From Thermoplasmatales archaeon E-plasma (lineage in GTDB: Archaea; Thermoplasmatota; Thermoplasmata; Thermoplasmatales; Thermoplasmataceae), in assembly GCA_000496135.1 (NCBI GenBank), contig KI542675.1:372001-436000 (forward strand): a stretch of DNA of 64,000 nt, in the 5' to 3' direction. This document shows positions 2,442 through 59,827 of the stretch, piece after piece. A program made the translations under genes and the position numbers. Each line of letters opens with the position of its first letter. Position 1 is the first letter of the stretch. Under the pieces are notes generated by a model. The model saw only the letters and a list, made by a program, of their open reading frames with translations. It had not been told where the DNA came from and made no database searches.

Positions 2442-3365
2442 TTATTGAGGTTTGTCAACCTTGTCTGCAAAAGACAGGTATATTTTCCATCTGGGGAATT
2501 TTTCAAATGCCTTAAACAACAGTGAATAAAATTCTGTGCTGCTAACCTCAGGAACTATGAACCCCATAGTAAATATTCTGCCATCAAGTTTCTGTGGGAG
2601 TGCAAGAATTGGAATCCCTAACTCTGCGGCATTTGTAGAAATGTATTCAACAACTTCATTTCTGAACTTGGTTTCAAAAATATGCTCTGACGAACTTATT
2701 TCATTTATACTGGGATCCCCAACTTTCAATAAACCATGCCTGTCTCTAAAGACTGCGCTAATTTCACCGTCAGTGATATACCTGATTTGTCTGTTCCATC
2801 CCATTCCTAGAATCTGAACTATGGGGTCTTTTCTAATATCAACAGCTTCAGGAGGAATTTCAGAGTTTGCTTCAATATAGTCAATATTTGTAATTTCTGC
2901 CACTCTTCTGAACATATCCAGTATTCCTTCAGCCTCACCCAGGTAACTTACCTTAAAGTCCCTTAATTTAGTTGAGGCTTCGGCAATAATGCCAGAAACT
3001 ACCTTCAAATGAACGCTGTGAAATCTAAAGAAGAGGTTGGTAACTCCATTAATATTGATTATGGCATCTATAACAACTGAATTTGATGAAATTAGTTTCT
3101 TGTGCAATGTAAACAATGCTGAATTTGTTATTTCCTCTGAAGAAGAGTAAAAAAGATCATGTTCCTTCAGAGCGGTTTCAGTCTTTAAAAAGTCATTCCC
3201 TCTTTTGGGAATATTTAGAATTAATATTCCCTTTTCTCCCTGCATTTTAATTCTTCCTATGGATATAATATCTTTACCACTTAGTATACTGGAAGTCTTA
3301 TCTTCCGTTACAAATTTCAGGTGGCATCTCTTATCCAAAACTCTATGAAAGTCTTTTATTATCAT
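2442..3365 (-). CDS. Conserved-looking protein of unknown function
   Basis: A 307-residue soluble protein starting at ATG 3365. It has mixed alpha/beta character with no signal peptide or membrane segment. An internal stretch (SVVIDAIININGVTNLFFRF, then VSGIIAEASTKLRDFKVSYLG) reads like a ligand-binding or regulatory fold. A recognisable C-terminal helix-turn-helix, as in Bat-type activators with similar-looking N-terminal domains, is not evident. The gene is probably first of a two-gene unit with the small downstream gene. Function is unknown; I assign no family. Confidence 0.7.
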   Translation of the reverse strand: MIIKDFHRVLDKRCHLKFVTEDKTSSILSGKDIISIGRIKMQGEKGILILNIPKRGNDFLKTETALKEHDLFYSSSEEITNSALFTLHKKLISSNSVVIDAIININGVTNLFFRFHSVHLKVVSGIIAEASTKLRDFKVSYLGEAEGILDMFRRVAEITNIDYIEANSEIPPEAVDIRKDPIVQILGMGWNRQIRYITDGEISAVFRDRHGLLKVGDPSINEISSSEHIFETKFRNEVVEYISTNAAELGIPILALPQKLDGRIFTMGFIVPEVSSTEFYSLLFKAFEKFPRWKIYLSFADKVDKPQ

Positions 3366-3528: not shown

Positions 3529-4506
3529 CTATCTGATGAAGGAATAAATTTTTCTTCGCAGGTCTCTGATATCTGTATTTTCCTGAATTAAGCCAGAATC
3601 TATTAATTCGGTCAAGGCATTTTGAACTGTTCTTCTACTGAGACCTGTTGCACTTATCAAACTGCCCTGGTCAATTTTAATGGAATTCTTTATTATATGC
3701 AGGACAAATTTTGTTGCTGGACTCCCTTCAAAGACTTCCATATGCTTATCCATACTGAAGGTATCTCCTCTTAATGATAGTCTTTGACTTGCTAGAGATG
3801 CAACGGAATCTACTGAGACATTTCCTAAATTTATTTCTTTTCCATATCTGAGAATTAGTTCTACCTGTTGTTTTTCCAGGGGAGCCTCAAACATAACCTT
3901 CTCAAGACTGATGCATTCTAAAATAGAATCCGCCCAATCCCACTTTATATTTCCGAGTTCATCATAAATTTCCACACCTTTCCCGGTTTCCCTTCCTTCT
4001 ATAATGATGGTATCCGGTTCAAATTCTTGAGCTTCACTTATTTTGTCTATTGTCTCATTAAGTGTTAGCTGCTCCGCTATTCTCTTTTTTCCAACCTCCA
4101 TTATAAGGATAAGATCATTGGATTTTGCGAATTCGGCAGCAATTTTTCTCTCCTTTTTAGGAATATTGCACACTCCCTCGCTTATTTCAATGTAATTAAA
4201 TCCGGAGTTTTTTAGCAAGTTTAATCCCTTTTCAAACTTCCCCCGGACGAAGCAAGTTTCAAGGAAAGTTCCTCCATTACTGACTCCTATACCATAAGAT
4301 TTAATTTGAGAAATTCTATGAATTAGGGAATTTGTATCAGTTAAAAATGCAAGTCCCCAACCTATTTTTATATAACTTACAAAGGGAAAAAGTACTTTTA
4401 GCATGCTTAAATCAGTGGATAATCTGTCGATCACCATTGTTTTGCCTATGCCTTCATTTAATTCCTCTTCAACCCCGGAAATTTCTGATCCATATAAATT
4501 TAACAT
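3529..4506 (-). CDS. Phosphosulfolactate synthase (ComA) homologue with C-terminal winged helix
   Basis: ComA-family enzymes add sulfite to phosphoenolpyruvate to give (2R)-phosphosulfolactate. Family blocks are clear: KTMVIDRLS, YIKIGWGLAFL, GIGVSNGGTFLE, NYIEISEGVCNIP, IMEVGKK, EGRETGKGVEIYD, VMFEAPLEKQQVELI, GNVSVDSVASLASQRL. Known ComA proteins are about 250 residues; this one has about 70 extra C-terminal residues with a winged-helix/HTH pattern (IDQGSLISATGLSRRTVQNA, ALTELIDSGLIQ). The ATG at 4506 (325 aa) is chosen because upstream frame starts only at a TTG (4560) and an A/T-rich box lies near 4528-4540. It is divergent from APS reductase and ATP sulfurylase, a link to sulfite supply. 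Thermoplasmatales are not known to need coenzyme M, so the product or a purely regulatory role is open. Confidence 0.85.
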   Translation of the reverse strand: MLNLYGSEISGVEEELNEGIGKTMVIDRLSTDLSMLKVLFPFVSYIKIGWGLAFLTDTNSLIHRISQIKSYGIGVSNGGTFLETCFVRGKFEKGLNLLKNSGFNYIEISEGVCNIPKKERKIAAEFAKSNDLILIMEVGKKRIAEQLTLNETIDKISEAQEFEPDTIIIEGRETGKGVEIYDELGNIKWDWADSILECISLEKVMFEAPLEKQQVELILRYGKEINLGNVSVDSVASLASQRLSLRGDTFSMDKHMEVFEGSPATKFVLHIIKNSIKIDQGSLISATGLSRRTVQNALTELIDSGLIQENTDIRDLRRKIYSFIR

Positions 4507-4592
4507 AAGATTCAAACTTGTATACTTAAACACGTATTTATTTTTACTACAATTGCGCAAATTTTTCTTACAAATTAACTATCAATAAGCAA

Positions 4593-4603
4593 TTTAGGTA
4601 TAT
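4593..4603 (+). promoter_or_regulatory. TATA element for the APS reductase-ATP sulfurylase operon
   Basis: The sequence tttaggtatat lies about 20-25 nt before the ATG at 4618, the spacing expected for a leaderless archaeal transcript. The roughly 110-nt gap to the ComA-like gene is thus a divergent promoter region. Confidence 0.45.
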
Positions 4604-4617
4604 GACAATCATCCATT

Positions 4618-5307
4618 ATGAATAGAGTATATGGTGACGAGACATTGTTCGAGGTACTTAAGACCTCTCAAATGTATTTCGGGAATGATATTGTATTTCT
4701 GTGCAGTTTCAGTAATGAAGATATGATTATACTGGATTCTTTATGCAGAAATCATATACCTATCGATATATATACAATAGATACTGGACGCTTGAATCCA
4801 GAGACCTATGAGTTCATAGATGAGGTAATAAAACGCTATGAAGTTAAATTAAACTATTTAGTTCCTGATAGCGGATCATTACAGTCCATGCTCCTGGAAA
4901 ATGGTCCTCAGCTGTTCTATGAAAGCGTTGAAAAGAGAAAACTTTGCTGTAAAATCAGAAAAGTTGATCCACTTTCGAAATTATTAACGGGGAAGAGAGC
5001 TTGGATATCTGGAATAAGATCAACACAGACTAGCGAAAGGCAAAAGTTCAAACTGTACGAAGTTAACAACGGGTTGACAAAAATTAATCCTCTTATTGAT
5101 TGGACAGATGAGAAGGTTAAGAAAGTCATTCAAAGTCTAGGGATACCAGCCAACAAACTTTACAGAAAAGGCTATAGAAGTATAGGTTGCTATCCTTGTA
5201 CGAGGCCAGTGTTTGAAGGTGAAGGTGACAGAGATGGAAGATGGTGGTGGGAAAACGGATCCAAAGAATGTGGTATTCACACATCTAATTTGGGTGGTTC
5301 TAATTGA
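4618..5307 (+). CDS. cysH: Assimilatory APS/PAPS reductase
   Basis: A 229-residue phosphoadenylyl/adenylyl sulfate reductase that reduces activated sulfate to sulfite. The PP-loop-type N-terminus is VFLCSFSNEDMI. Two cysteine pairs, CC at 110-111 and CYPC at 191-194, are the [4Fe-4S] ligands that mark APS-reducing (rather than PAPS-reducing) members, and the catalytic C-terminal motif ECGIH is at 217-221. IDTGRLNPETYEF and SGIRSTQTSER are family substrate-site blocks. The stop overlaps the TTG start of ATP sulfurylase, so the two are translationally coupled. The C-terminal thioredoxin-like domain of plant enzymes is absent, so an external thiol donor is needed. Confidence 0.92.
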   Translation: MNRVYGDETLFEVLKTSQMYFGNDIVFLCSFSNEDMIILDSLCRNHIPIDIYTIDTGRLNPETYEFIDEVIKRYEVKLNYLVPDSGSLQSMLLENGPQLFYESVEKRKLCCKIRKVDPLSKLLTGKRAWISGIRSTQTSERQKFKLYEVNNGLTKINPLIDWTDEKVKKVIQSLGIPANKLYRKGYRSIGCYPCTRPVFEGEGDRDGRWWWENGSKECGIHTSNLGGSN

Positions 5308-6485
5308 TATCTCCATATCATGGTGGATCCAGAGTAAAAATCCCGAATTGCAAAATAGAAAACCTGAATATATTACCTAAAATCCAAATAGATGAACAGA
5401 CCCTAATCACACTAAGCCTATTAAAAATTGGAATTCTCAGTCCGTTAGACTCTTTTCAAGGTTACGAAGAGGCAATGGAAATATCCAGAGAGGGAAGAAT
5501 GGAAAATGGTCTTGTCTGGTCTATGCCAGTACTTCTTCCTGTAACAGATGAAGAATCATACACATTTAGTGAGGGTGATGAAACAACCCTGCATTTTTCG
5601 GATAAGTTAGTCGCTCTCATGAAGATTGAGGAAAAGTTTTCTCTGGACATGTATGAATATTGCAATAGAATATTCGGAACAACAAGCATTGATCACCCCG
5701 GAGTCAAAGCAATCCTTCAAAAAGGGAATAAATTTGTTTCAGGGCACATTAAAGGGATCAATAATTATAACACACATTTTTCAACAATGCAGCCTGATCC
5801 AGACAAACTCAGGGGACTATTCAACAAAAAAGGTTTTAAGACTGTAACCGCATTTCAGACAAGGAATCCACCGCACAGGGGACATGAATTCCTTCACAAA
5901 TACTCTCTACTTTCCACAGATGCTCTATTCATAAACCCCGTTCTGGGCCCTAAAAAAAGTGGAGATTTTTCGGATCAGGAAATATTTCAATCATATCAGG
6001 TCTATCTCGATAAGTATTTACCTAAACAAAGAACCATTCTGTTGCCCCTCATATACGCCATGCAATACGCGGGACCAAGAGAGGCAATAATGCACATGAT
6101 TATGAGAAAGAATTTAGGATGCACTCACTTTGTCATAGGGAGAGATCATGCAGGAGTGGGATCATTTTATGGTCCGTACGCTGCAAGGGATTATGTCAGT
6201 ACATTCACAGATATAGGAATCGAGCCTGTCTTTCTGAAGGAAGCATATTACTGTAAAGCATGCACAGAAATCTCAAATGATGATATATGCCCACATGACG
6301 ATTCTCAAAAGAGCCATTTCAGTGGAACAAAGATCCGTGATGCATTTCTGCATAAAAGGGAACCATATCCTTATGAAATGAGAGGTGAGATATATAATAA
6401 AATCATAGAACTTCGCTCAAGCAAACAAAACACTGTTGAGACGTTAGATAAATTGGAAATCAATTTGTCAAATCCTTTGGAATAG
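5304..6485 (+). CDS. sat: ATP sulfurylase (sulfate adenylyltransferase)
   Basis: Makes adenosine 5'-phosphosulfate from ATP and sulfate, the substrate for the upstream reductase. It has 393 residues, the size of single-function prokaryotic Sat. Landmarks: N-terminal HGG, the ATP-binding QTRNPPHRGHE near residue 185, GRDHAGVGSFYGPYAARD, and a CKAC...CPHD zinc-binding cluster as in thermophilic Sat. The TTG start at 5304 overlaps the preceding stop by four bases (TTGA). No APS kinase gene is nearby, which agrees with direct APS reduction. Confidence 0.95.
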   Translation: MISPYHGGSRVKIPNCKIENLNILPKIQIDEQTLITLSLLKIGILSPLDSFQGYEEAMEISREGRMENGLVWSMPVLLPVTDEESYTFSEGDETTLHFSDKLVALMKIEEKFSLDMYEYCNRIFGTTSIDHPGVKAILQKGNKFVSGHIKGINNYNTHFSTMQPDPDKLRGLFNKKGFKTVTAFQTRNPPHRGHEFLHKYSLLSTDALFINPVLGPKKSGDFSDQEIFQSYQVYLDKYLPKQRTILLPLIYAMQYAGPREAIMHMIMRKNLGCTHFVIGRDHAGVGSFYGPYAARDYVSTFTDIGIEPVFLKEAYYCKACTEISNDDICPHDDSQKSHFSGTKIRDAFLHKREPYPYEMRGEIYNKIIELRSSKQNTVETLDKLEINLSNPLE

Positions 6486-59113: not shown

Positions 59114-59725
59114 TCATGCCTTTACTCGCTGGAGGTACCATCTCTCTGCCCCTTCTTTCTCTCTTTCAAGGGCAGAATCAAGCGTTGTTGGAGCCCCTTT
59201 GACGCCGCCATCTCCCTCTTTCCAGTTAACCGGAGTGGCCAGTTTCCTGTCCCAGTTAAACTTAAAGGCTTTGATGACTCTTATTATCTCGTCAAGGTTT
59301 CTTCCAACCTCTGCGGGATAATATACCATCCATCTCACTTTCTGATCCGGGTCAATGAGGAAAACTCCTCTTACAGTCATTCCACCCTTTTCATCCATCA
59401 TATTAAACATTCTTGCTACCTCAAGTTGAGTGTCTGCTATAACGGGGAAAGGTACGGTAATACCATATTTTTCCTTTATATCCTTCAGCCAGGCAATGTG
59501 ACTGTAAATACTGTCTATACTCAATCCGAGAAGCTGGACTCCCAGTGCTTTAAATTCATCATATCGCTGCGCGAATGCCATGAATTCTGTTGTGCACACC
59601 GGGGTAAAATCCGCCGGGTGTGAAAACAGTAAAACCCATTCTCCTTTGAATTGCGAAAGTGTTATTGGTCCGGCAGTTGTATTTGCACTAAAATCTGGCG
59701 CTTTTTCTCCTAAATATACTGGCAT
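59114..59725 (-). CDS. 1-Cys peroxiredoxin (Prx6/AhpC-TSA type)
   Basis: 203 residues. The peroxidatic Cys44 sits in HPADFTPVCTTE, with the catalytic Arg in PDQKVRWMVYYPAEVGRN. The long C-terminal arm is of Prx6 type and ends RWYLQRVKA. Cys44 is the only cysteine, so no intra- or intermolecular resolving Cys exists, unlike many archaeal Prx6 members; an outside thiol must reduce it. The 115-residue protein is coupled downstream. Confidence 0.95.
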   Translation of the reverse strand: MPVYLGEKAPDFSANTTAGPITLSQFKGEWVLLFSHPADFTPVCTTEFMAFAQRYDEFKALGVQLLGLSIDSIYSHIAWLKDIKEKYGITVPFPVIADTQLEVARMFNMMDEKGGMTVRGVFLIDPDQKVRWMVYYPAEVGRNLDEIIRVIKAFKFNWDRKLATPVNWKEGDGGVKGAPTTLDSALEREKEGAERWYLQRVKA

Positions 59726-59827
59726 TATATCACCAACAGGTAATCGTTTACTAATTTATTAATAAAACTGTTATGAGCCTTATTTGCACACTATGAAATA
59801 TTTAAATATTCGAGAATCAGCAGTCTG

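Follow-up and report, generated by a model that had tools for sequence, protein, structure and literature searches.

The locus and the fusion gene

The window analysed here is a stretch of 64,000 nucleotides from contig KI542675.1 (positions 372,001 to 436,000) of the Thermoplasmatales archaeon E-plasma (assembly GCA_000496135.1), and our subject is a gene in it that joins a domain of the phosphosulfolactate synthase family, ComA, to a helix-turn-helix (HTH) DNA-binding domain, back to back with the genes cysH and sat. The fusion gene occupies 3529–4506 on the reverse strand and encodes a protein of 325 residues, for which homologues with the same architecture are found; the open reading frame spans 3529–4560(−), and the ATG at 4506 was chosen as the start with the support of these homologues. 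On the forward strand, cysH (4618–5307) codes for an adenosine 5′-phosphosulfate/3′-phosphoadenosine 5′-phosphosulfate (APS/PAPS) reductase of the CC...CxxC iron–sulfur type, which makes sulfite (PF01507, E = 7.5e-41; PRK02090, 229.9 versus 154 bits), and sat (5304–6485), whose start overlaps the end of cysH, codes for an ATP sulfurylase (PF01747, E = 7e-77; PRK04149, 396.8 versus 387 bits). The preliminary description of this DNA, made from its letters, had placed a ComA-type sequence with about 70 extra C-terminal residues opposite APS reductase and ATP sulfurylase genes within 3529–6485. This span is right, the profiles identify cysH and sat on the opposite strand, and the regulatory region between the divergent genes is 4507–4617.

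The AlphaFold2 model of the fusion, built with 40 homologues supplied, has two confident domains (mean pLDDT, the predicted local distance difference test score, of 91.5), separated by a linker at residues 250–257 that is the only segment with pLDDT below 50. The first domain matches PF02679 at residues 21–248 and a winged helix follows it, in line with the earlier division of the protein. An assembly or frame artefact was considered as the source of the fusion and ruled out, as dozens of independent genomes have the same architecture.

A winged helix of the MarR fold

The C-terminal domain (residues ~259–323; 3538–3732, reverse strand) is a winged HTH (wHTH) of the MarR fold, with helices at residues 263–273, 280–287 and 291–303, and wing strands at 307–311 and 319–323. 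When the last ~70 residues were scanned alone, Pfam HTH_36 was matched above its cut-off (25.1 versus 25 bits), and MarR_2 (25.0 versus 27 bits) and MarR (23.0 versus 24.6 bits) scored below their gathering cut-offs. The domain is modelled as a confident winged helix (pLDDT 94.5) and superimposes on MarR structures with template modelling (TM) scores of 0.83–0.90 over 63–68 columns, with a root-mean-square deviation (rmsd) of 0.8–1.4 Å for the best; together with the HTH_36 match, this confirms the C-terminus as an HTH. The residues R291, T293 and Q295 of the recognition helix are invariant in the 40 fusions. The wHTH fold is thus common to the fusion and the MarR-family regulators, but the latter have separate dimerisation helices, which are absent from the fusion and have the ComA barrel in their place.

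The wHTH is also matched by the model of MsvR (NF053755) in 34 of the 40 fusions, with a best E-value of 2.4e-6. For the window fusion this match reaches 27.4 bits, below the cut-off of 220, and covers only profile positions 1–71, the HTH part; no V4R domain is among the Pfam matches of the window fusion.

The ComA barrel and its active site

The ComA domain (residues ~21–250; 3757–4446, reverse strand) is a phosphosulfolactate synthase-like triosephosphate isomerase (TIM) barrel. PF02679 matches it with E = 5e-58 (196.9 bits, gathering cut-off 25.2), and the NCBIfam equivalog model of ComA, TIGR03849, gives 206.2 bits, below its cut-off of 280. Foldseek places the barrel on the Methanocaldococcus jannaschii phosphosulfolactate synthase (1QWG) with a TM score of 0.85 by target and an rmsd of 2.0 Å, with 36% identity over the structural alignment, and the fold and conserved active-site residues are shared with both this enzyme and Bacillus subtilis YitD (1U83). 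The conserved residues in the ComA domain of the fusion include K47, E83, E107, S109, E137, K141, E170, R172, E173, E207, Q214, N229, R246, and D248; in M. jannaschii numbering, K43, E79, E103, S105, E133, K137, E168, R170, E171, E205, Q212, N227, R244, and D246 are kept in 93–100% of the fusions. K137 was reportedly once proposed as the catalytic acid/base of ComA. Residues common to M. jannaschii ComA and YitD, among them the charged core and the EVGKK lysine, are retained in the fusions, which carry a fixed change of A226 to G (consistently NLGN instead of NLAN) and lack T48 of ComA and YitD. Because of this retention of ComA/YitD residues, the sulfite/phosphoenolpyruvate (PEP) site looks intact and catalysis is possible, so that the ComA domain may still be an enzyme. 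Unlike ComA, however, the fusion carries a wHTH, scores below the equivalog cut-off, is linked to sulfite production, and belongs to a genome that lacks ComC.

One genus also has ComA-HTH paralogues that do not lie beside cysH (L039, 7769–8761; L040, 7700–8692; L041, 6553–7545; and a partial copy, L141, 1–756). In L039–L041 the LRGDTF motif is lost or replaced (e.g. GLAGEGLF), and these proteins may have a degraded active site and a purely regulatory role, with other targets.

Linkage to cysH-sat

Among 117 genomes of the order, this cysH was found in 36, each of which also has the fusion, and in no case was cysH present without it (Fisher 4e-28, a value that ignores shared ancestry and is descriptive only). 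Two genomes of the order, G047 and G110, have the fusion without cysH, and that of G110 is cut at the contig end. Most loci of two families, and of part of a third, have fusion and cysH in the divergent arrangement; in G077 both genes are present on separate contigs and are not adjacent. Genes farther out differ between loci, such that the neighbourhoods are shuffled while the fusion–cysH pair persists, and no general conserved neighbours beyond cysH-sat were found in the compared loci. The linkage to sulfate genes noted in the preliminary description is therefore a conserved one; in the genomes of the order cysH is always accompanied by the fusion and nearly always paired with it divergently.

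In the window, a Ta1207-family gene (2442–3365, reverse strand; PF19020, E = 6.9e-67) adjoins the fusion gene, an adjacency seen only here and in the closest relative, L033.

A candidate palindromic operator between the divergent genes

A palindromic motif, in the form of a position weight matrix, was trained on 38 fusion–cysH intergenic regions with whole clades held out (proteins more than 62% identical). The motif learned was stable across trainings, a 21-bp palindrome with consensus AATATGnAAAWTTTnCATATT, and the palindromic model generalised to held-out clades better than an unconstrained one. The held-out intergenic site was the best of the entire locus in 26 of the 38 regions. A second run, which included a matched control, gave 27 of 38, against 0–1 of 38 for five control sets drawn from other upstream regions of these loci; the motif log-likelihood was 99 for the fusion–cysH intergenic regions versus 23–31 for the control sets.

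In the window, the predicted operator O1 (ATTGCGCAAATTTTTCTTACA, 4552–4572, unstranded) has its centre 56 bp from both start codons, and its score ranks second of 63,980 window positions with its own clade left out and first with the full model. A weaker second operator, O2 (AATAAGCAATTTAGGTATATG, 4584–4604, unstranded), is predicted 32 bp from O1; it covers the presumed TATA region of cysH, its centre being 24 bp ahead of the start of that gene, and scores 6.3 bits here and 9.9 in the sister genome. When the best site was masked, 16 of 28 loci had their next-best site at a distance of 32–33 bp, where 1.4 were expected; counted by clade, this spacing is seen in 7 of 13 (p = 7e-7). Since 32–33 bp correspond to three helical turns, this spacing suggests cooperative dimers on one face of the DNA. 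O1 tends to lie either 56 or 67 bp from the start of cysH, two preferred distances that differ by one helical turn. In G047 and G077, both outside the training set, a site is kept just upstream of the fusion gene.

The element could be nothing other than an ordinary archaeal core promoter (B recognition element (BRE) and TATA box), the linkage reflecting a shared ancestral neighbourhood. It is indeed AT-rich, and some second copies lie ~31 bp before a start codon, where the TATA box of a leaderless transcript is expected. We regard this explanation as highly improbable, however: the same procedure applied to other upstream regions of the same loci yielded no comparable motif, O1 is in most loci 48–76 bp away from the starts, farther upstream than a core promoter would be expected, and a merely inherited neighbourhood sits poorly with a pair that persists amid shuffled surroundings.

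A genome-wide regulon was sought by consensus pattern matching in the organism's own genome, which gave 65 matches per strand versus 38 for the reversed control. The best other matches are internal to coding sequences or sit at the end of one, and hence no wider regulon is supported; among the top matches in the region of the gene for UDP-sulfoquinovose synthase, no operator upstream of that gene was found. Two overlapping matches are found in the window at 59772–59810, one of 12.1 bits, nearly the strength of O1, and the other a three-mismatch pattern hit, upstream of a peroxiredoxin-like gene (59114–59725, reverse strand); they could be due to chance or mark a second target, and the closest HTH model, MsvR, is that of a redox regulator. 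Separately, the ComA-HTH of G047 (L070, 3358–4383) has a strong operator (15.3 bits) and no cysH, in one of the few genomes with sulfite reductase genes, and looks like a remnant or a rewired regulator.

Distribution and phylogeny of the fusion

The earlier description had left open whether relatives share the fusion. Of the order's 117 genomes, 38 have the fusion with a strong match, and they cover most of the 17 genera in which anything matched. A short HTH stretch alone was matched in ten genomes of the order; a scan of contigs with the single window protein found two close relatives only. Within the class, two further families, f14 and f15, have the fusion, and f27 has a stand-alone ComA. 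In a maximum-likelihood tree of the ComA domain every fused protein falls in one clade (98/89), so the fusion probably arose once. Clade A (97/85), to which the window protein belongs, contains the sequences of f1 and f14 together with four from f15, almost all of them next to cysH; clade B comprises 24 f15 sequences, most of which are not.

The latter clade gives some ground for a regulator whose ComA domain senses another phospho-metabolite rather than sulfite, for instance PEP alone, as a carbon or energy signal. Genes for a triosephosphate isomerase and a ROK kinase, both recognised by eye, and for a PurT-type ligase lie near clade-B genes (f15, e.g. L107, L110, L122), and the fixed change at A226 and the missing T48 would fit an altered ligand. 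In our view this is unlikely for the window protein, given that clade A is tied to sulfite-producing genes with almost no exception in the order and that the sulfite/PEP site of the fusions is not degraded.

The fate of sulfite

No protein with a NIR_SIR domain, and thus no sulfite reductase of this type, was found in the organism's own genome, and sulfite reductase is absent from 33 of the 36 cysH genomes (present in three). The preliminary description had raised the possibility of an unrecognised sulfolactate pathway, to be checked through the presence of ComB and ComC. A ComB-family protein is indeed encoded (193.5 versus a cut-off of 235), but ComB-family homologues are found in 91 of the 117 genomes, and in the family hardly a member lacks one, whether it has ComA or not, which argues against a specific partner of ComA; ComC (PF02615) is absent from the organism's own genome. 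The sulfolactate alternative is weakened on both counts, and a coenzyme M or sulfolactate pathway was ruled out by the missing ComC and the ComA-independent distribution of ComB. In the organism's own genome the ComB-family (2-phosphosulfolactate phosphatase) homologue (L188, 1398–2063, reverse strand; G000:C3:107900 region) lies beside genes for ribosomal protein L11 and an MptE-like protein, and its true substrate is probably not phosphosulfolactate.

These data also bear on the idea that the fusion acts mainly as a phosphosulfolactate synthase, removing surplus sulfite as sulfolactate, and that its wHTH is there for localisation or oligomerisation and not for gene control. The retention of all polar core residues of ComA/YitD, the EVGKK lysine among them, the lack of a sulfite reductase to remove sulfite, and the ComB-family phosphatase all accord with it. 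Nevertheless, it leaves unexplained the conserved palindromic operator with its helical spacing and the invariant recognition-helix residues, the phosphatase is present irrespective of ComA, and ComC is absent; we consider this idea quite unlikely.

UDP-sulfoquinovose synthase is encoded at G000:C3:353270–354442, ~22 kb from the fusion and outside the window (NF041015, 626.3 bits, above the equivalog cut-off of 575; SQD1 1QRR, E = 2.4e-109), and a homologue is present in 33 of the 36 cysH genomes, the three others being 78–89% complete. The substrates of the Sulfolobus enzyme are sulfite and UDP-glucose, according to a paper that also lists a homologue from Thermoplasma acidophilum (PMC4388408). 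The N-glycans of T. acidophilum contain 6-C-sulfofucose, according to work cited in PMC12421959, which states that no biosynthetic pathway for this sugar has been identified.

The window also encodes a repetitive surface protein (53–1681) with near-identical repeats (YPVTFTESGLPSGTSWSVTFNG...); related repeats are found near UDP-sulfoquinovose synthase (L170) and in other loci (e.g. L035).

A proposed mechanism

A gene-switch role of the fusion is probable because in many acidophilic Thermoplasmatales a ComA enzyme, which normally couples sulfite to PEP, is fused to a DNA-binding domain, its gene is placed back to back with sulfite-making genes, and a conserved site lies between them. We therefore propose that the fusion is probably a one-component regulator whose dedicated target is the divergent cysH-sat, with the ComA domain sensing sulfite together with PEP, or the product. 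The conserved tandem palindromic operator in 4507–4617 backs the alternative of a sulfite- or sulfonate-responsive regulator put forward in the preliminary description. The 21-bp palindrome of the shared promoter region would be bound by ComA-HTH dimers, in many loci at two sites 32–33 bp apart; in the window the dimers would occupy O1 and O2, controlling cysH-sat and the fusion's own gene. Binding of sulfite with PEP, or of the product phosphosulfolactate, to the ComA domain would alter DNA binding and so match sulfite output to demand. As sulfite reductase is usually absent, this demand is probably not sulfide formation, and would at least partly be UDP-sulfoquinovose synthesis for sulfonated surface sugars.

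The ligand, any residual catalysis, and the direction of control are what we infer from these features. If the end product feeds back on its own supply, the fusion would be a repressor that acts when sulfite is abundant, sulfite being the co-repressor. In the window, O2 covers the presumed promoter of cysH, but O1 is located upstream of both core promoters, so activation by the fusion at this site is possible. More tentatively, the fusion might be a trigger enzyme that fixes sulfite onto PEP and switches cysH-sat accordingly, governing a truncated sulfate assimilation that ends at sulfite and feeds UDP-sulfoquinovose-type sulfonate synthesis rather than sulfide and cysteine.

Several observations weigh against this dedicated regulator of sulfite supply. 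A site no more than ~31 bp from a start falls on AT-rich DNA of the TATA region or core promoter, and hence some of the second sites could be promoter elements; the intergenic regions of L055, L058, L060, L067, L130, and L134 have weak sites only. In addition, 36 genomes of the family have UDP-sulfoquinovose synthase without cysH. As the synthase is far more widespread than cysH, sulfite can come from elsewhere, which makes cysH-sat one of several possible sources and its link to sulfosugars one that we infer. Finally, many f15 genomes with clade-B fusions lack cysH, and others have it elsewhere in the genome; since these fusions mostly do not lie beside cysH, sulfite control may not be the sole role of the ComA-HTH architecture, and clade B may regulate other genes.

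Relation to known regulators and significance

Regulators that combine an enzyme domain with an HTH are an established kind in archaea and bacteria, exemplified by RbkR (riboflavin kinase), ThiN-HTH, GfcR (phosphoribosyltransferase), and BirA, in which an HTH-fused metabolic enzyme domain controls the genes of its own pathway. The same logic is proposed for the fusion, where the sensed pathway would be sulfite supply. YeiE is a regulator of the LysR type. As the bacterial regulator of sulfite stress described in PMC12880088, it has sulfite-related gene control in common with ComA-HTH, but its fold and sensor domain are unrelated.

MsvR, the redox regulator of methanogens, resembles the fusion in its wHTH and in a divergent, auto-regulatory arrangement with paired boxes, the auto-regulation being predicted for the fusion. 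The MsvR half-sites, TTCGTA/TACGAA, are similar to the TACGAA/TTCGTA half-sites of several fusion operators, and MsvR reportedly represses transcription from its own promoter, where it blocks BRE/TATA (PMC3729527). The two differ in build: the HTH is N-terminal in MsvR and comes with a V4R sensor, but is C-terminal in the fusion, where ComA is the proposed sensor.

No description of a ComA-HTH regulator was found in the open-access literature, which misses most subscription journals, and within it a ComA-based family with its operator and a truncated sulfite pathway appears to be undescribed. Sulfite is reactive and toxic, and no description of archaeal control of its formation was found in the literature searched. 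The retention of cysH and sat, the missing sulfite reductase, and the presence of UDP-sulfoquinovose synthase suggest that these acidophiles assimilate sulfate in order to make sulfosugars. If the proposal is true, ComA would join the enzymes turned gene regulators, with a defined candidate operator, and this would account for the ComA homologues annotated as coenzyme M enzymes in non-methanogens.

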